From Rhodospirillales bacterium (GTDB lineage Bacteria > Pseudomonadota > Alphaproteobacteria > SMXQ01): 64,000 nucleotides of DNA. The notes beneath the pieces were generated by a model, which ran no database searches, was not told the origin of the DNA, and was given only the letters and a program-made list of their open reading frames with translations. The DNA lies in NCBI GenBank assembly GCA_018666775.1, contig JABIXC010000008.1, forward strand, positions 1 to 64,000, written 5' to 3'. This document shows positions 22,862 through 35,686 of the stretch, one piece after another. The position numbers were made by a program, and so were the translations under genes. Position 1 is the first letter of the stretch, and every line of letters begins with the position of its first letter.

Positions 22862-23542
22862 ATGACAACCGTTTTAATCACAGGGGCAAACCGGGGCATT
22901 GGGCTGGAATTCGCCCGCCAATATGCCTTGGATGGCTGCCGGGTCCATGCCACCTGTCGTGATCCTATCGCTGCCCGTGAATTGGCGGCAATTTCAGGCG
23001 ACATAACGGTTCACAGCCTTGATGTGACCGACATCAATGCCATTGATCGGTTTGCGGCCAGCCTTTCGGGTGAGGTGGTGGATGTTTTGATCAACAATGC
23101 CGGCATTATGGGGCGCAACTAGACACTGGATGCCATTGATTATGAGTGGTGGGAAAAGGTTATGGCGGTGAACACCTTGGCGCCATTGGCGGTGGCTGCG
23201 CGGTTTATCCCCCATCTGGAACGGGGCAAGGACAAGCGCATTGCCTTTCTGACCAGCCGCATGGGGTCTATTGCCGATAATTCCAGCGGTGGGTTTTATG
23301 CCTATCGTGCCTCAAAGGCGGCATTGAACGCGGCAGTCAAAAGCCTGAGCTCAGCGCTTGAACCAAAGGGCATCATCGCTTTGTTGCTGCACCCGGGCTG
23401 GGTCCGGACCGATATGGGTGGGCCCAATGCGCCTTTGGATGTGGCGGCATCGGTGACAGGCTTGCGCGGGGTGATATCTGGGGCAAAAATGTCGGAATCT
23501 GGGCATTTTATGGCCTATGACGGGACGGAGATTCCTTGGTAG
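22862..23542 (+). pseudogene. Short-chain dehydrogenase, interrupted by an in-frame TAG
   Basis: Reading through one stop codon gives a 226-residue SDR: NAD(P)-binding TGANRGIG (residues 7-14), LDVTD and NNAGIMG, then TAG at codon 87 (23120-23122), and in the same frame TLDAIDYEWWEKVMAVNTLAPL, the catalytic YRASK (Tyr148, Lys152) and LHPGWVRTDMGG. The stop sits where relatives usually have a sense codon; a CAG-to-TAG change would explain it. The upstream piece alone lacks the active site, so the gene is probably inactive unless TAG is read through or is a sequencing error. Confidence 0.85.
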
Positions 23543-25994: not shown

Positions 25995-27026
25995 ATGGCT
26001 TTGCAATTGGCAACAGGAATTTCGGGGGGGCTGGCACAAATGCCGGGCGTGCGGAGCAGTGCCGCTGCTTCCAGCATCCCGAAACCCACAGCCGGTTACC
26101 AGCGTGAACTTGGCGCATTGCGCACGGCGGGGCAGCGGGCGGTTCAAATTGCCAGCGTCGATGCCGGAAAGCTTGGCATTGCCAGCGCCCTGACCGATCT
26201 TGCCAAGGCACAATCGGGTGTCAGCGAAATTTCCGACATTTTGGACCAGATGAAGGCCCTGACCAACCTTGCCACGCAAAAAACGGTGGCGTCGGCAACC
26301 GGCATTGAAACCAGTGATTAAGATATTTTATTGGCCCAGGGGCTGTCCACCACGGACCGGGCCCATTTGAATCACAGTTTTGATAATTTGCGCGATGAAA
26401 TCACAGCAATCGTTGCGCGGACCACCAATGATGCGGGCACCGTGTTGCTGGATGGTGATGGTGGGGCTTCCAGGACGCTGACCTATACCGTTGGCGGGTC
26501 GGATGGGGGCGGTGAAACCTTGTCTGTCTCTATTGCGTCAGCCACGGTGGCAAAGCTTGCCACGGGGCTTGATAGTGCCGATTTGCTGACAGCATCCAAT
26601 GCAACCACGGGCGATACCCTAACAAGCGATGCACAGATTGCGGCCGCCGCCATTGCTACGGCCATACGGGCGCAACAAAACCACGCCAGCGGGGCAAATA
26701 GCCTTGTGGTTGGGTATGGTGCCGCCGCGGGTACAGAAAAGAATACAAATCTTGAATTAAAAGGTGTTGTGGATATTTCAAGTGAGGTGGCCGCCATGAC
26801 CACCCGGAATATCGGAAGCAACGCTATTGGCCAGAATTACCAAAAGGCTCTCGGGCTTCTTGGTGGGCTTACCAGCCCCGTTTCCCAAGCCCGCAGCGAT
26901 ACCAGCGCGGGCATTGGTGGAAACGATTCTGGTTCATCTTCCAGCGCGCCATCGAGCGCACCATCGAGCGCACCGGCCAGTCCACCATCAAGCGCACCCA
27001 GCGGTGGGGTAGATATCTCTGCGTAA
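25995..27026 (+). pseudogene. Flagellin-like gene, interrupted by an in-frame TAA
   Basis: Read through one TAA (codon 109, 26319-26321), the frame encodes 343 residues. The first part has GVSEISDILDQMKALTNLA and the part after the stop LNHSFDNLRDEITAIVARTT with GTVLLDGDGG, which resemble the helical N-terminal domain of flagellin (LA.ITNILQRMRELA, then LQ..F..L..EI..I). The C-terminal flagellin domain is not recognisable; instead the end has AQNH-type sequence and a Ser/Ala/Pro repeat (SAPSSAPSSAP). The family call is tentative. The stop makes it a probable pseudogene. Confidence 0.6.
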
Positions 27027-27034
27027 AGCCAGCG

Positions 27035-28141
27035 TTATGCGCCTTTGGCCAGACCTGCCACATATTCCCCAATAGCCAGCGAAGACGTGAGCCCCGGGCT
27101 TTCAATCCCATAGAGCGCGATCAATCCGTCTACGCCGTGAACATCCGGCCCTTGAATAATGAAATCATTGTCAGCGGCGCGGCCTGGGTTGGTTTTGGGG
27201 CGGATGCCGGCATAGCCCGGTTCCAGATCGCCATCTTTTAAGTCAGGCCAGAACAGGCGGGCGGCATCATAGAAAAAGGATGCGCGCGCGGGATCAACCC
27301 AATAATCAATTTTGTCCACGTCTTCGGTGTCTGGCCCAAAACGCATTTGGCCGCCCATGTCCGGGCTGACATGCACTGCTTGGTGGTGCGCATCCGGCAA
27401 AGGATAGATCAGCCGTGAAAAGGGTGCCTTTCCGCGCAGGACAAAAAAGCAGCCTTTGACCAAAACTTGGCCGGGAATTGTGTTTTCCGGAATGCCATCA
27501 ATGGTTCTGGCAATGCCCTGTGCCCCAATGCCTGCGGCATTGATACAGAGATTACACTGGATGGTGGTTTGTTCCTTCCCGCCGATGGAAAGTTCAATGC
27601 CCCCCTCGATCGCGCGTCCCTTGATAACCGGGGATCGTAATGCCAGGGATGCACCATGGGCCTCGGCATCGCCCAAAAGTGCCAGCATCAGATCATGGGC
27701 ATCAACAATGCCCGAAGAGGGGGAATATAGAACGCCCTTAAAGACAAGTTCGGGCTCCATTTCCCGGACCTCTCCCGCATCCAGCATACGCAGATCAAAC
27801 AACCCGTTGGATTCTGCTTTCAGGCGGTGGGCCTCCAGCTTTTCTGTTTGGGCATCGTTGGTCGCAACAATCATCTTGCCACAGCGCCGGTGGCCAACGC
27901 CGTGGGTTGCGGCATATTCATAGAGCAATTCTTTTCCCCGAAGGGCCAGCCGAGATTTCAGGCTGCCCGGCACGTAATTGATCCCGGCATGAATGCACCC
28001 GGTGTTGCGCGATGAGGTGTGGGTGCCAATGGCGTCTTCGGCTTCAATGATAACAACCTCGCGCCCCGCCATGGCCAGTGCGCGGGCAATGGCCAATCCA
28101 ACCACCCCGGCACCAATGACAATACAATCAGTTTTTTCCAT
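27035..28141 (-). CDS. FAD-dependent oxidoreductase, L-2-hydroxyglutarate oxidase (LhgO/L2HGDH)-like
   Basis: 368 residues. The Rossmann FAD motif VIGAGVVGLAIARALA is at residues 8-23, followed by the DAO-fold marker THTSSRNTGCIHAGINY. SSGIVDAHDLM and the C-terminal GIRPKTNPGR and YGIESPGLTSSLAIGEYV are typical of the L2HGDH/LhgO group, which oxidises L-2-hydroxyglutarate to 2-oxoglutarate and passes electrons to quinone. Substrate is inferred by family only. It is the last gene after five MFS transporters on the same strand, 28 bases downstream of the nearest. Confidence 0.85.
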   Translation of the reverse strand: MEKTDCIVIGAGVVGLAIARALAMAGREVVIIEAEDAIGTHTSSRNTGCIHAGINYVPGSLKSRLALRGKELLYEYAATHGVGHRRCGKMIVATNDAQTEKLEAHRLKAESNGLFDLRMLDAGEVREMEPELVFKGVLYSPSSGIVDAHDLMLALLGDAEAHGASLALRSPVIKGRAIEGGIELSIGGKEQTTIQCNLCINAAGIGAQGIARTIDGIPENTIPGQVLVKGCFFVLRGKAPFSRLIYPLPDAHHQAVHVSPDMGGQMRFGPDTEDVDKIDYWVDPARASFFYDAARLFWPDLKDGDLEPGYAGIRPKTNPGRAADNDFIIQGPDVHGVDGLIALYGIESPGLTSSLAIGEYVAGLAKGA

Positions 28142-28169: not shown

Positions 28170-29399
28170 TTATTTAAAGGAATTTCGGGATTTGAAGGCG
28201 ACGAAAAGCATCAGTAAAACCAGGAAGCCACCGACCACATAGAACGTCGGGGCAATGCCAATGAATTCTGCCATGGCCCCCATGATCACCGGGGTTACCA
28301 AAATCGACAGGCGATTGACCGTGGTGCGCAGGCCCACGCCCTTGCCCTGTTGGCGACCCGATGATTGGGACATCAGGGAAATCAACAAGGGTTGGCTGAC
28401 CCCCATGAACCCGCCCCGCAGCCCCATGGCGCCCAACAACAAAACAAAGGTGCCCAGCATCGGCGTGATGGCGATCAATAAAATTGCCAGGCAGACCGAC
28501 ACTACCAAAACCCTGTAGGCCGTGAATTTCTTTGCCAGCCACCCCGCCGATATGGAGCCAACACTGCCCAACACGGCGGATGCAGATATCAACGTGCCGA
28601 TCATGGTGCCGGTTAAGCCGATGGATTCAAGCCACACCACATAGAACGAGGTTTGAATGCCATTGGAAGAATGGCGGATCAAGGTAACGGCAATGACAAA
28701 GGCCACGGTCGGGATGGCGATCAACCGGAAGGCCGATGTGTAATCGGTCAGCCGCGGCAGAACTTCACGCACCGTCAGGCGTGAATAATTTTCATCGCCG
28801 CTGCCGATCTCGCCCTTGACGGGTTTGGGCATGGCAAGGCAGGAAAGGGTGAGGGCGATACCCCAAAATCCTAAAAACCCGAAGCCGCCCCATGGTCCGG
28901 CAAAATCCCAGGCCGCCCCGGTTGCCGGTGGCCCCACCAACATGCCGAAGCGGTTAAAGAAGGTGACGCGCCCGGCGTATTTGGGTTCGCCCTTCATGAC
29001 GGCACCAATTTGGGCCTGGGTGCCGATCCAGCCCATGGCGGCAGAAATACCGCCCAGCATTTGTAAAAGGATAACGGCGGCAAAGAACGGGAACAGGGGA
29101 AACAAAAATGGCGTCACTGCGCCCAGAATGGAAAACCAGATCATCACCTTGCGGATGCCGATGCGATCCATAAGCGCGCCGCCATGGATTGACAGCAGCA
29201 CGGGCAATATCTGGCGAGAGCCAAGGGCGATCCCCACCATCAGGGGGGAGCTGTCAACGTGGAGCATCCACAAGGGAACAACCACGGCGGCCAGTTGAAT
29301 GGCCCCATTGGAAAAAATGCCGGCGGCATAAACCGGCAGCTGGCTGCGAAGGGGAATATTCCCCGGTGTCGCCACTTCGGGCGATTTATCCTCACTCAA
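28170..29399 (-). CDS. MFS transporter, array member 1
   Basis: 409 residues, about 12 membrane helices. The loop 2-3 motif is SIHGGALMDRIGIRKVM; the central cytoplasmic loop has LPRLTDYTSAFRLI; the second half has SFYVVWLESIGLTGTMIG and, near the end, GVGLRTTVNR. These four blocks recur in all five tandem genes here. It is last in the transporter run, 61 bases after its upstream neighbour and 28 before the FAD oxidoreductase. Substrate and direction of transport are unknown. Confidence 0.85.
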   Translation of the reverse strand: MSEDKSPEVATPGNIPLRSQLPVYAAGIFSNGAIQLAAVVVPLWMLHVDSSPLMVGIALGSRQILPVLLSIHGGALMDRIGIRKVMIWFSILGAVTPFLFPLFPFFAAVILLQMLGGISAAMGWIGTQAQIGAVMKGEPKYAGRVTFFNRFGMLVGPPATGAAWDFAGPWGGFGFLGFWGIALTLSCLAMPKPVKGEIGSGDENYSRLTVREVLPRLTDYTSAFRLIAIPTVAFVIAVTLIRHSSNGIQTSFYVVWLESIGLTGTMIGTLISASAVLGSVGSISAGWLAKKFTAYRVLVVSVCLAILLIAITPMLGTFVLLLGAMGLRGGFMGVSQPLLISLMSQSSGRQQGKGVGLRTTVNRLSILVTPVIMGAMAEFIGIAPTFYVVGGFLVLLMLFVAFKSRNSFK

Positions 29400-29460
29400 C
29401 GCATTTCCTCCCAGATTGTCTTAAAAGCCAGCGTGACTTTGGTCAAGCCTTGGCCTTCGA

Positions 29461-30684
29461 TCATTTTGTAGCCCCAGAGCGTTTTGCATAAACCGCAATC
29501 AGGGCGACCAGACATAAAAGGGCGCCCCCCATGATGTAAAAGCTGTTTTCAAGCCCGGAAAATTGAACCACTGCACCCATGATGATCGGAATAAAGGTTG
29601 CCGCCAGTCGGTTGGCACTGGTGCGCAATCCCACCGCTTTGCCCTGATTTTGGGACCCCGCACCCCGTGCGGCCATGGTGATCATCAAGGGCTGGCCCAG
29701 CCCATAAAGGCCCCCGTTGATGGCGACGGCCACCATCAACAATGCATAAGAGCCAAGGACAGGCGTGATGGTGACCATAAGGATACAGACAGACACCGCA
29801 AAAATGGCCAGCCATGCGCCCGAAAAACGTTTCATCAATGGACCGGCCAGCAGGGAAGTTCCGCCGCCAAAAAGCGAGAAAACGGTCATCAACAGACCAA
29901 TGGTGGTGCCGGTGTAACCCAGTTGTTCCAACCAGATGACATAGAACGATGACTGCATGGAAAAGCCACCAATTCGGATCACCGCCAGCATAACCACGGT
30001 TGCAATCACGGGGATGGACAACAATGAAAAGGTGGCCATGTAATCAGATAGTCTTGGGATAAAATCCCGTGCATTGATGGGAACATATTGGGTGCCGGGT
30101 TTTGGTGGTGTTTTGGGCAGGGCAAGACACGATGCCATCAATCCAGCCCCCCAGAGCGCCAAGGTCCCAAAGGATAGCCATGGCCCGCCAAAATCCCAGG
30201 CGGCCCCGGTCAGCGGCGGGCCTATCAATGCGCCGATGCGGACTGCGGCGCTCATCCGGCCGGCATGGACGGCACTGCCTTTCAGGGTTTGCCCGATAAT
30301 GGCTTGGGCCCCGATCCAGCCAATGGCCGTGGAATAACCGGCAATCATCTGGATCAACACCAACACCCATAGCCAGGTTGTCAAAGGATAGAAAAAGGGA
30401 ATGACCGCACCAATCCAGGTGAACATGACCATGATGCGTCTGGGGTCCATGCGGTCCATCATGGCCCCGCCATGGATGGAATACAGAAACACAAGAAAAT
30501 GTCGGCTGCCCAACACGATGCCAATCATCAACGGGGATGGATTAAGGGTGATGACCCACAAAGGCACCACCACCATGGTCATGTAGCCAAGAGAATTGCT
30601 GAACATTGCGGCACCATAGATGGCCAGCTCCAGGCGAAGGGGCATCTTTTCAGGCGCTGAATAATCAGGTGTTTTGCTGCTCAT
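29461..30684 (-). CDS. MFS transporter, array member 2
   Basis: 407 residues, about 12 membrane helices. Array motifs: SIHGGAMMDRMDPRRIMVM (the usual glycine and its neighbour after DR are altered to MDP), IPRLSDYMATFSLL, SFYVIWLEQLGYTGTTIG and AVGLRTSANR. Its start codon overlaps the stop of member 3 by ATGA, so the two are translationally coupled. The altered loop motif suggests it may have diverged in gating. Confidence 0.85.
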   Translation of the reverse strand: MSSKTPDYSAPEKMPLRLELAIYGAAMFSNSLGYMTMVVVPLWVITLNPSPLMIGIVLGSRHFLVFLYSIHGGAMMDRMDPRRIMVMFTWIGAVIPFFYPLTTWLWVLVLIQMIAGYSTAIGWIGAQAIIGQTLKGSAVHAGRMSAAVRIGALIGPPLTGAAWDFGGPWLSFGTLALWGAGLMASCLALPKTPPKPGTQYVPINARDFIPRLSDYMATFSLLSIPVIATVVMLAVIRIGGFSMQSSFYVIWLEQLGYTGTTIGLLMTVFSLFGGGTSLLAGPLMKRFSGAWLAIFAVSVCILMVTITPVLGSYALLMVAVAINGGLYGLGQPLMITMAARGAGSQNQGKAVGLRTSANRLAATFIPIIMGAVVQFSGLENSFYIMGGALLCLVALIAVYAKRSGATK

Positions 30685-31928
30685 GATTTTGGGCTTGCCT
30701 TACCAAAAGCCACCCATATTCCCATGCCCGCAAGGATGGATAGCATCAACGTCCCGGTCACATAGAAGGTTGCGTTCAACCCCCAAAATTGGGCAATGGC
30801 CCCCATAAAGACGGGGAGCATCAGATTGGCCACCCGGTTTCCTGTGGCGCGCAGCCCGATGGCGGTGGCCTGGGTTTCGGGGCTAACCGCATTGGAAAGA
30901 ATCCGGTACATCACCGGTTGGGAAATGCCCTGACAAAGCCCCCGAATGCCGATGGCCACAGCCAACACAAAAAAGGCATCGCCATAAAGCGGGGTTGAAA
31001 AGACAAAGAAAATGGAAAGGCAGACCGCGCCTAAAAAGACCCAATTGGGCGGGATGAAGCGCGTCAGGTGGGCTGCCAACAGGGTGCCACAGGCCGCCAT
31101 CATCTGTGACAGGGTCAGAAAGCCCCCAATGGCAGTTGCTTTCAGACCAAGTTGTTCCAGATAAATAATATAAAAGGATTGCTGCATGGTTGCAGACACA
31201 ATGCGCACCGATGATACGACCACCACGAAGGCGACCGCCGGGATCACCAACAGCCCTGCAGCACCAATGTAGTCAGAAAGTTTTGGCATCAGGTGGCTGA
31301 TGCGAAAATCAGGCCGCGATGCGATATCAACCCGTGCAGCACCGACCTCAGAGACTGGGACGGCACGCACCGCAATCAAGAAGGCAATGCCGACAACACC
31401 GATGACGGCAAAGGCAACCCATGGGGCGACAAAATCCCACAACACGCCCGCCATGATCGGGGCAATCATGACGCCGACCCTTGCAAAGAAAGCAAACCGG
31501 CCAACAATGGCGGGCTTGTTTTTACCCGCTTCCACCGCCAGCGATTGCGCGCCGATCCAGGTAAAGGACATGGCGGTACCGACGGCCATTTGCAAAAGGA
31601 TGAGTGCGGGAAACCATGTGCTAATTGCGAAAACGGGTGGCAACAAAGCCCCGGCGATGCCCATCAAAATCATGACCAGCCGGGTGCCGTAGCGGTCCAT
31701 CAAGACGCCGCCATGGATGGCAAGGATACCGGGTAAAAGTGATTTGGCACTGACCAGAAAACCAATTTCCAGCGGGCTTAGTCCAAGCATGACGGCCCAA
31801 AGGGGGATTAGAAAGCCAATCAGTTCTGCCTGACTGTCGGTGAGCATCCCTGAGGCATAGATGGTGAATTCTGCACGCGGTGAAACCGGCTGCTTGCTTG
31901 GCTCTATAGGTTCATCGGCATGGCTCAT
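30681..31928 (-). CDS. MFS transporter, array member 3
   Basis: 415 residues, about 12 membrane helices. Motifs: AIHGGVLMDRYGTRLVMIL, MPKLSDYIGAAGLL, SFYIIYLEQLGLKATAIG and AIGLRATGNR. It overlaps both neighbours by ATGA sequences (30681-30684 and 31925-31928). The N-terminal tail (residues 1-22) is polar and Pro-rich. It is clearly paralogous to the other four but not close enough to be a recent copy. Confidence 0.85.
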   Translation of the reverse strand: MSHADEPIEPSKQPVSPRAEFTIYASGMLTDSQAELIGFLIPLWAVMLGLSPLEIGFLVSAKSLLPGILAIHGGVLMDRYGTRLVMILMGIAGALLPPVFAISTWFPALILLQMAVGTAMSFTWIGAQSLAVEAGKNKPAIVGRFAFFARVGVMIAPIMAGVLWDFVAPWVAFAVIGVVGIAFLIAVRAVPVSEVGAARVDIASRPDFRISHLMPKLSDYIGAAGLLVIPAVAFVVVVSSVRIVSATMQQSFYIIYLEQLGLKATAIGGFLTLSQMMAACGTLLAAHLTRFIPPNWVFLGAVCLSIFFVFSTPLYGDAFFVLAVAIGIRGLCQGISQPVMYRILSNAVSPETQATAIGLRATGNRVANLMLPVFMGAIAQFWGLNATFYVTGTLMLSILAGMGIWVAFGKASPKS

Positions 31929-33190
31929 GGACGGGGTCTTAATCCGAAGGCCTTTGATCTTGCGACCATGATGGCCATGAACAGAACAATACCCAAAAGC
32001 GCAATGCCGGTCAGCAAGAAGGCATTTTCAACCCCGATGGATTCTGCAATGAACCCCATGATAATGGGCAGCACGATGGCACCCAATCGATTGCCTGTGG
32101 TGCGAAGGGCAACGCCGCGCGCCTGATATTCCGTTGGCAGGGATCTGGAAATGAAGGAAAAGGTTGCCGGGTGTAAAAACCCGTGGGCTGTTCCGCGCAG
32201 AATTTGGGCGGCGGCCAACAGGATGAATGCGCCGCCTAAAAGCGGGGTAATGGCCATCATGGTAATGGTCATGGCGGTCATGAATAACAAAAGCCAGTGG
32301 ATCGTAAAGCGTCGCATGACCGGGGCGGCGACCAAGGAACCTATGGCCCCGGTGACTTCCGATGCAGAAATCAAAACACCGATCAGGGTTGCGCTCATAC
32401 CAATGTCATTCAGGTAAGTGATGTAAAAGGATGATTGGATGGTTGATGGCGTATGGCGCAGCAATGCCACGGCAATGCCCAACCCCACAGCAGGGATGGC
32501 CAACAGGCTGAGACAGCTGGTGTAATCACTTAATCGTGGCAGAAAATCTCGCCAGCCAACCTTGGGGGCAGATGTTTTTTCCGGAGGTAGTGCATGTTCG
32601 CCTTCAACCCCATGTTCGGCCCAACGCGGCACCAACCAGGTAGATACCAATAGCCCCAATCCGGCGATGGTCGTGGCGGTAAAGGCTCCCCAATGGCCGG
32701 TTAAATCCCAGATCAGGCCAATCACCATGGGGGCGGCAATGCTGCCAGCACGGGAGGTAAAGGAAAATATCCCAAGATAATGGGGGTCGCCTTTGCCCAG
32801 CCGGGCAATCAGGGTCTGGGACCCAATCCAGCCAAGATTAGTGAAAAGCCCCGTCAGCATTTGCAGCGCAACAAGTGCCGGGAACCACGGACACAAGGGA
32901 TACAGCGGAACAAGGCCTGCGGTGAAAACAGTAAAAATCAGCATCATGCGACGCGTGCCATAGCGATCAATCAGGACACCGGCATGGATGGCCAAAAGAA
33001 ATGGCAAGAAAGACCGCGCCCCTACCATGATGCCAATTTGCGCCGGCGTTGCACCCAACATCAGCGCCCATAAGGGGGCTGCCACCAATAGAAAATCTGA
33101 ATAGATGTTGGCCATTAACCCGGTGCCAAGAACGGGGTAATACGCCCGCTTTGGAATTGAATGGCGTGGGGGAATACTGGATGCGGTCAT
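31925..33190 (-). CDS. MFS transporter, array member 4
   Basis: 421 residues from the ATG at 33190, which overlaps the stop of member 5 by ATGA; a longer frame to 33241 would overlap member 5 by 55 bases and was rejected. Motifs: AIHAGVLIDRYGTRRMMLI, LPRLSDYTSCLSLL, SFYITYLNDIGMSATLIG and GVALRTTGNR. About 12 membrane helices with a short central loop near residues 190-220. Confidence 0.85.
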   Translation of the reverse strand: MTASSIPPRHSIPKRAYYPVLGTGLMANIYSDFLLVAAPLWALMLGATPAQIGIMVGARSFLPFLLAIHAGVLIDRYGTRRMMLIFTVFTAGLVPLYPLCPWFPALVALQMLTGLFTNLGWIGSQTLIARLGKGDPHYLGIFSFTSRAGSIAAPMVIGLIWDLTGHWGAFTATTIAGLGLLVSTWLVPRWAEHGVEGEHALPPEKTSAPKVGWRDFLPRLSDYTSCLSLLAIPAVGLGIAVALLRHTPSTIQSSFYITYLNDIGMSATLIGVLISASEVTGAIGSLVAAPVMRRFTIHWLLLFMTAMTITMMAITPLLGGAFILLAAAQILRGTAHGFLHPATFSFISRSLPTEYQARGVALRTTGNRLGAIVLPIIMGFIAESIGVENAFLLTGIALLGIVLFMAIMVARSKAFGLRPRP

Positions 33191-34452
33191 GTCTTGAACC
33201 CGGGGATGGTGCGCACCCACAGGGCAACGACGAGACAGCAAAAGATGAGAAACCCGCCGATCAGGTAAAAGCTGTCTTGAAGGCCGATGCTATCGACCAC
33301 GACGCCCATGATGACTGGCACGATGACGGATGCAAAGCGGTTTGACGTGGTGCGCAGCCCAATGGATGTACCCTGTTCAGATTTGCTAATGGCGCGCGCC
33401 AAAATGCCGAACATAACGGGTTGGCTCAGCCCCTGTGCATAGCCGCGCCCGACGCTAAACAGTACCAACAGGACAAAAATATCTCCAAGGGCCGGGGTGA
33501 TGGAAACACAGAACAACGACATGGCAGCAAAGATGATGAAAACCCAATGGGGCTTGATATGGCGTTCCCAAAAACCAGCCATGAAGGCTCCGATCAGGCC
33601 AGCGCCTTCGGATATGCCGATCAAAAATCCGATCACCGTTCCGATCAAACCAATTTCCTGAAGGTAAACCACGTAAAAAGAGGTTTGCACGACAGAAGAT
33701 GAGATGCGCAATGCACTCATGGTGATGACAAAGGCAACCACTGGTACGGCGGCCAGAGAAAAGGCATGCAGGTAATCGGACCATTTGGGGGTGAGATCAG
33801 AAAGCTTTCGCCTCGATGCTTCGTTGTCCGCACCCTTCCCTGATGGTTCATGGTCGACCGGCACCAGCCACAGGGCCAGAACCACCAGCCAACTGAACAG
33901 GCCCATAAACACAAACGCCCCCCATGGCCCTGCAATATCCCACATGGCACCAATGGCCATTGGTGCCACCAACGTGCCGACCTTTCCGGCGATGGAAAAA
34001 CGCGACAGCAATATGGTCTTGCCCTTGGTAAAATGAACGATCAAGGTCTGTGCCCCGACCCAGCCCATATTGGCTGTCAGCCCGGTGATCAATTGCAGAA
34101 AGAGCACGGCTGCAAAAAATGGCAGCGCTGGATAAATAGGGGCCAGCACTGCGGTGGTGATGGCATAGACCATGGTGACCCGCCGCGTGCCAAACCGATC
34201 CATCAGTACGCCGCCGTGAATGGAAAGCAGAAACGGCATCAGGGCCGACATGCCAACGGCGATGCCAATTTGGGTGGCAGAAAAATTCAGATGAATGGCC
34301 CACAGCGGCAGAATGACCTTCAGCATCATGGCGACAGAATTGGCCGTCAGCCCAACCCCATAGGTGGCATAGATGGTCCGTGCCGGGACCTGTTCCTCAT
34401 CATCGGTTACGTCTGTGCCATCATGGGGATCGGCACCGGGGGCTTTGGCCAC
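33187..34452 (-). CDS. MFS transporter, array member 5 (first in the operon)
   Basis: 421 residues from a GTG start at 34452. Motifs: SIHGGVLMDRFGTRRVTMV, TPKWSDYLHAFSLA, SFYVVYLQEIGLIGTVIG and SIGLRTTSNR. The first ~25 residues are acidic and polar (DPHDGTDVTDDEEQ). It is the most upstream gene of the run, so the operon promoter should lie in 34453-34657, where I found no convincing element. About 12 membrane helices. Confidence 0.85.
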   Translation of the reverse strand: MAKAPGADPHDGTDVTDDEEQVPARTIYATYGVGLTANSVAMMLKVILPLWAIHLNFSATQIGIAVGMSALMPFLLSIHGGVLMDRFGTRRVTMVYAITTAVLAPIYPALPFFAAVLFLQLITGLTANMGWVGAQTLIVHFTKGKTILLSRFSIAGKVGTLVAPMAIGAMWDIAGPWGAFVFMGLFSWLVVLALWLVPVDHEPSGKGADNEASRRKLSDLTPKWSDYLHAFSLAAVPVVAFVITMSALRISSSVVQTSFYVVYLQEIGLIGTVIGFLIGISEGAGLIGAFMAGFWERHIKPHWVFIIFAAMSLFCVSITPALGDIFVLLVLFSVGRGYAQGLSQPVMFGILARAISKSEQGTSIGLRTTSNRFASVIVPVIMGVVVDSIGLQDSFYLIGGFLIFCCLVVALWVRTIPGFKT

Positions 34453-34657
34453 GAGCGGGGGACCTTTTTTTGGTTTCGCAGCGATTTTGCGCGTTGGATA
34501 TCCGGGATTGGGTCGCGTCCGGAATTTGGGGGGATTTTACCCGGAAACCGGGCGATTGGGTGAACTAATGCGTGCCCGGGGCCTGAAACTTTCAGTCGTA
34601 ACAAAATCGTGAGCAGAGTTCATTTGTGCCAAATTTGGTCATGGTTCAGAGTTAGGC

Positions 34658-35686
34658 ATGACAAAAAGACAAATTAAGGCCTGTGTCGTTGTTTTTGCCC
34701 TGTGTGCATTGGGGGCGGGGACATATTTGCTGACACCAAATGAAAGTATTGGTGCGGATCAGGCCAAAATCCCTAAAGCTGCAAAATCCTGGGTGAATGA
34801 ATGGCCAAAAACCGATTTTTCCCGCCATTCGGTGGATTTGGGAAAAATCCGCTCCGGTGGGCCGCCCAAGGATGGCATTCCACCCATCGATGACCCCCGT
34901 TTTTTGCCCTTGGATAAAATTTCCGATCATATCGGGACTGAGCCGGTCATTTCGATCTCTATCAAAGGTGATTCCCGGGCATATCCCCTTTCGGTGCTGA
35001 TGTGGCATGAAATCGTCAATGACTATGTGGGCGGTGTGCCCGTATCGATCACGTTTTGCCCCTTGTGCAATGCATCTGTGGTGTTCGACCGACGCCTTGA
35101 TGGCCAGGTGCTGGATTTTGGCACCACTGGAAAGTTGCGCCGTTCTGATCTGGTTATGTATGACCGCCAAACCGAAAGTTGGTGGCAGCAGTTTCTAGGG
35201 GAAGGCATTGTTGGCACCTATATGGGAAAACGGTTGAAGATGCTGCCATCCCGGTTGGAATCCCTGAACCGGTTTCGCACGCGCCACCCTGACGGCAAGG
35301 TGCTTGTGCCTAATAATCCGTCCATGCGCAATTATGGCGCCAATCCATATGCGGGGTATGACAGTTTGTCGCGCCCGTGGCTGTATGGTGGAAAAATGCC
35401 TGCAGATGTTGCACCCCTATCCCGGGTGGTTTCCATTGGCAAGGAAGCGTGGGCGCTCGCATTGGTGCGCCGCCATAAACGCATTGTTGCCGGGGATCAT
35501 GTGATTACCTGGGAGGCGGGACAAAATTCAGCCCTGGACAGTCCTGAAATTGCCAAAGGGCGCGATGTTGGCAATGTGGTGGTGCAAAAACGCACGGCTT
35601 CAGGCCTTGTGGATGCAGTTTACGGCATTGATTTTGCCTTTGCCTTTTATGCGTTTCATCCAGATGGAATTATTCACGCTAAATAA
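34658..35686 (+). CDS. DUF3179-domain protein, secreted or anchored
   Basis: 342 residues. Residues ~8-25 form a signal peptide or anchor (hydrophobic [16 protein letters not shown]). The domain starts with [12 protein letters not shown] and contains [39 protein letters not shown] and the [22 protein letters not shown] block, all DUF3179 features; the paired cysteines in CPLC are conserved. Function is unknown. It lies divergently from the MFS array, 205 bases from its first gene. Confidence 0.85.

Follow-up and report, generated by a model that had tools for sequence, protein, structure and literature searches.

A conserved tandem array of MFS carrier genes in a Rhodospirillales lineage

Tandem transporter genes are common, and MFS proteins usually function as single chains. 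Divergent carriers of one MFS subfamily may also accumulate within a genome, as illustrated by the nine fpt genes of Francisella, which are described as an expanded subfamily of nutrient transporters (PMC8308642). With respect to substrate recognition, the basic cavity residues of OxlT bind a dicarboxylate dianion (PMC10070484). In the literature that was searched, no close precedent was found for MFS arrays or for heteromeric MFS carriers. The locus described here was recognized in a stretch of 64,000 nucleotides (the window) from contig JABIXC010000008.1 of a Rhodospirillales bacterium, the assembly of which (G000) comprises 2.41 Mb on 19 contigs and is 98% complete. Sequence comparison with related genomes shows that the array has a greater age, size and regularity than the window alone could reveal.

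Genes and junctions in the window

All five MFS genes are read from the minus strand, one after the other from 34452 down to 28170, starting with M5 (33187..34452, 421 aa, GTG start), which occupies a position in the array called slot V. It is followed by M4 (31925..33190, 421 aa, ATG start), M3 (30681..31928, 415 aa), M2 (29461..30684, 407 aa) and M1 (28170..29399, 409 aa, TTG start), each assigned to the orthogroup of the same name. This arrangement and the gene lengths given in an earlier note on this DNA agree with the ORF calls. All five proteins match the Pfam model MFS_1 with 102–124 bits against a curated cut-off of 33.4 (E 4e-29 to 7e-36), and their pairwise identity is 32.7–44.6%. 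The view that the genes are too divergent to result from an assembly duplication is upheld by the identities of 33–45% and by the presence of the same slots in other assemblies. The four motif blocks reported to recur in the five proteins are real, but the 'HGG-MDR' block is motif A, which is found throughout the MFS; the other three are marks of the subfamily and are also present, in varied form, in relatives outside the array.

Exact ATGA overlaps, as noted earlier, join M5 to M4 (33187-33190), M4 to M3 (31925-31928) and M3 to M2 (30681-30684), and 61 nt separate M2 from M1. This space is spanned by a 22-codon ORF (29396-29464, minus strand), the start of which overlaps the M2 stop (ATGA) and the stop of which overlaps the M1 start (TTGA). 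It was considered as a coupled small gene and rejected for want of a counterpart in the relatives G007, G009 and G003, and the reading frame is probably due to chance. The presumed promoter site of the array, placed on the basis of position, is the divergent intergenic region between M5 and a DUF3179 gene (34453..34657). A promoter scan that included this region gave no match on the minus strand, and the terminator-like sites obtained with a terminator scan fall inside coding sequence.

Starting 28 nt after M1, a gene on the same strand (27035..28141) encodes an FAD-dependent oxidoreductase of the DAO family (Pfam DAO, 5e-66) that is L-2-hydroxyglutarate-oxidase-like; its best NCBIfam match is to L-2-hydroxyglutarate oxidase, with 188 bits, below the cut-off of 299. 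Orthologues with 69–70% identity are located after the array in G004 and, in G008, after M1 on a separate contig. It is probable that this oxidoreductase gene is the last gene of the operon. Elsewhere in the window, on the plus strand, a short-chain dehydrogenase gene (22862-23542) carries one in-frame TAG at 23120-23122, after which the frame continues to a complete protein; this is either a pseudogene or an assembly error. A flagellin-like gene (25995-27026, plus strand) has one in-frame TAA at 26319-26321, which falls within a stretch that is missing from the relative G004 (L110:3108-4019, intact).

The array in related genomes

The array is found at one chromosomal place in seven genomes of the family, G000 and six relatives, and in all seven the slots follow the order V-A7-M4-M3-A6-M2-M1 without exception. 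These seven slots are orthogroups with support values of 0.96–1.0 (from a maximum-likelihood tree with 90 rows and a FastTree to which 41 more members were added). All of them lie side by side in G007. Six slots are present in the array of G008, with the seventh, M1, opening another contig; G010 also has six, the last one cut by the contig end. The array of G004 consists of five genes, with A6 and M1 absent inside a long contig. In G003 and G009, pieces of the array occur on short contigs, and the absence of M2 from the G003 array could reflect assembly incompleteness, as its contig is short and the genome is 91% complete. In G000, the array lies inside a long contig; A7 is missing from the genome, and A6 is a solitary gene at contig position 92556, approximately 58 kb from the array. 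Three genes are located at the place in G001 and G005, and one in G002 and G006. All relatives are draft metagenome assemblies, and the arrays of G003, G008 and G009 cross contig ends. The divergent DUF3179 gene, located at 34658-35686 on the plus strand in the window and facing away from slot V, marks the array place in seven of the 11 family genomes; beyond it lie DnaJ-like, galU-like, ugd-like and mutase-like genes, the last three named from sequence reading.

Sequence identity amounts to 51–93% within slots and to 31–51% between slots. Apart from A6 of G000 and one lineage representing an old dispersed duplicate of V, no genes outside arrays were found in the slot orthogroups. According to the earlier note, clustering of the five proteins in one clade would support a dedicated system, and closer relatives elsewhere would indicate independent acquisition. 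The tree does not unite the five in a clade of their own, and this one-clade test is too simple: each member has its nearest relatives in the corresponding slot of the syntenic array of related genomes. A dedicated array is thus supported, and independent acquisition is excluded although a single clade is lacking. A recent tandem expansion is excluded by the slot-wise clades.

The front slots V, A7, M4 and M3 fall in a clade confined to this family (99/96), and the greatest likeness between slots is that among A6, M2 and M1 (43–51%), with A6 and M2 grouping together (96/84). This pattern fits growth through old tandem duplications, which would have taken place in two blocks. Nei–Gojobori dN/dS values range from 0.10 to 0.46 in 30 comparisons that cover all seven slots, where ratios with dS >1 are rough, and from 0.13 to 0.20 in comparisons with the window genes; by this estimate, every slot is under purifying selection. 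The fixed slot order, the identity pattern and the purifying selection together argue for an old, vertically kept array. We estimate the probability that the array was vertically inherited, ancestrally had seven genes and was reduced to five in G000 at roughly 0.93.

As to the expectation that the overlapping genes are made in linked amounts, the overlaps are real and linked translation is plausible from the sequence, but the coupling varies by junction and by genome and is not a strict property of the array. The 4 nt overlap of M4 with M3 seen in the window gives way in relatives to a gap of at least 42 nt. The junction M3-A6 has a 4 nt overlap in all five arrays that possess both genes, an overlap of the same length joins M3 to M2 where A6 is gone (the window and G004), and a 4 nt overlap of A7 with M4 is possible in G004, G008 and G010, with start codons in the relatives being chosen by position.

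The array is part of a larger expansion. Sequence searches of the G000 contigs gave 15 strong members of the subfamily, of which five are in the array and ten elsewhere, eight alone and two adjacent on opposite strands. The total number of MFS genes in G000 is about 40, as estimated from 46 matching stretches, some of which are gene halves. Thus, 15 of about 40 MFS genes in this uncultured, small-genome lineage come from one subfamily. Members occur in all ten other family genomes that were compared (3 to 16 per genome), and matches at E <= 1e-85 were obtained in only five of 289 genomes drawn from the class, G000 included, which belong to the family of the array and one other family. A stretch with about three tandem MFS genes of a different subfamily, having a weak match or none to the array subfamily, is located at G000:C17:515917-520645.

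Carrier function and substrates

A structural model of M5 (pLDDT 92) displays the 12-helix MFS fold and has PDB matches at a TM-score of about 0.7, with sialin, NorA, VMAT2, DgoT and OxlT about equally near in Foldseek. Assignment of a substrate from the fold was rejected, since importers and exporters score alike. For none of the five proteins did an NCBIfam model of narrow function score over its cut-off, every match remaining far below. When motif A and the WD pair are set aside, most of the charged residues conserved inside helices among 79 members are arginines, namely R157 (K in M5), R249 in TM7, R336 in TM10 (N in M2), and R367 and R372 at the start of TM11. No conserved in-helix acidic residue was found in these 79 members besides motif A and the WD pair. 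By analogy with the basic cavity residues of OxlT, the conserved arginines suggest organic anions as substrates, and uptake of such compounds is a tentative proposal to which we assign slightly less than even odds.

The enzymes encoded next to the array differ, with the FAD oxidase in G000, G004 and G008, a serine hydrolase in G009 and an aminotransferase in G006. Genes for an amidase, an amidohydrolase, PdxA, an L-PSP family protein and a dienelactone hydrolase are also found as neighbours of the array or of single members. Such enzymes suit the uptake of small acids and amides. An attempt to deduce the substrate from neighbour genes was abandoned, since the partners differ between genomes and no single substrate follows.

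It has to be considered that the array may instead encode exporters, proton-linked antiporters with a separate spectrum for each slot, through which various related metabolites or natural antimicrobials would leave the cell. A motif-C-like glycine-proline pattern in TM5, G-x3-[GA]P-x3-G, is present in nearly all array members, and the top sequence match in the PDB is NorA, two points that weigh against the uptake reading in that they speak as much for export as for uptake; furthermore, there are sub-threshold matches to H+ antiporter and tetracycline models. NorA, however, relies on E222 and D307, according to PDB titles, and array members have conserved arginines in their helices instead of a conserved acidic residue beyond motif A and the WD pair. 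Since catabolic-type enzymes moreover adjoin both the array and single genes, export appears rather unlikely.

Concerning the division of labour, the earlier note offered either several related substrates or a multi-subunit carrier, and the first is the better reading. In a single hetero-oligomeric carrier of five to seven proteins, linked translation would keep the subunits in proportion, as the short overlaps at several junctions and the fixed gene order might suggest. Yet losses or relocations have affected individual slots (A7 in G000; A6 and M1 in G004; M2 in the array of G003), so that not all subunits occur together in every genome, and in four relatives the place holds one or three genes. 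Moreover, the overlaps vary between genomes and each slot keeps all family motifs, which makes a hetero-oligomer very improbable. A further version, in which five to seven different MFS subunits form one transport machine with its stoichiometry or assembly set by gene order and overlaps, and in which single-slot losses are tolerated variants of the complex, is likewise very improbable. None of the window members looks like an inactive subunit, since all five keep motif A and the WD pair as well as the arginines of TM7 and TM11. In view of the single-slot losses and of the family motifs retained in each slot, separate carriers of different specificity are favoured over one complex and are the probable arrangement.

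If all slots transported the same substrate, the array would serve to raise capacity, which would agree with the single subfamily, the one probable transcript and the tolerance of single-slot losses. In that case, copies would be expected to be alike or decaying, yet the slots are 31–51% identical and each is constrained, with fixed residues of its own. Such a dosage effect is therefore improbable. At ten positions, the residue is fixed inside each of six or more slots and differs from slot to slot, with polar changes in TM2, TM8 and TM10 among them. Their number is too small for statistical testing, but such positions would suit different specificities.

The separate carriers could thus operate as follows. 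The array genes would be transcribed as one message, with the FAD 2-hydroxyacid-oxidase-like gene last, and the short overlaps would link the translation of neighbours. Each product would be a complete carrier that works alone through the usual MFS alternating access, and the slots would differ in specificity inside one class, small organic anions such as carboxylates. The array would serve mainly uptake.

Comparison with described carriers

With all five proteins well over the MFS_1 (PF07690) cut-off, the 12-helix fold of the M5 model and motif A between TM2 and TM3, the array genes belong to the superfamily, but no narrower characterised family fits them. Among PDB sequences, the top match (E 2e-12) comes from the drug/H+ antiporters of the NorA type (DHA1), which share the motif-C-like pattern. 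The fold match to these is no better than that to uptake carriers, no conserved in-helix acidic pair was found among the 79 members, and the antiporter models are matched with at most 54.7 bits where 319.6 are needed (TIGR00900) and at most 26.8 where 131 are needed (TIGR00880). The organic-acid carriers OxlT and DgoT are among the near folds, and the array shares the feature of conserved basic in-helix residues; nevertheless, identity is about 12–15%, and the array arginines appear to be placed elsewhere than Arg272 (TM8) and Lys355 (TM11) of OxlT (PMC10070484).

A likeness in gene organization is seen in the MFS triples of five other alphaproteobacterial contigs (L005, L010, L011, L012 and L014), where a tandem run of three subfamily members has a relative of the FAD oxidoreductase with 52–53% identity downstream. 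These triples have other flanking genes than the array and form clades separate from the seven slots. The triple loci (located at approximately 8.7–12.5 kb, in another alphaproteobacterial group) have conserved flanks, and a Gld-like ABC transporter is also encoded downstream.

Rather than a new kind of system, the locus is a notable case of an ordinary one, namely MFS carriers encoded in a conserved tandem array, and fold and superfamily are ordinary too. What makes it valuable is that seven slots kept their order and identity while the identity between slots fell to 31–51%, so that the array offers a natural series on how MFS specificity changes, with slot-fixed residues that can be read directly. 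As compared by description with the fpt genes (PMC8308642), many diverged paralogues of one MFS subfamily are present in both cases, here 15 in 2.4 Mb, but in the array five to seven of them are adjacent and in fixed order.
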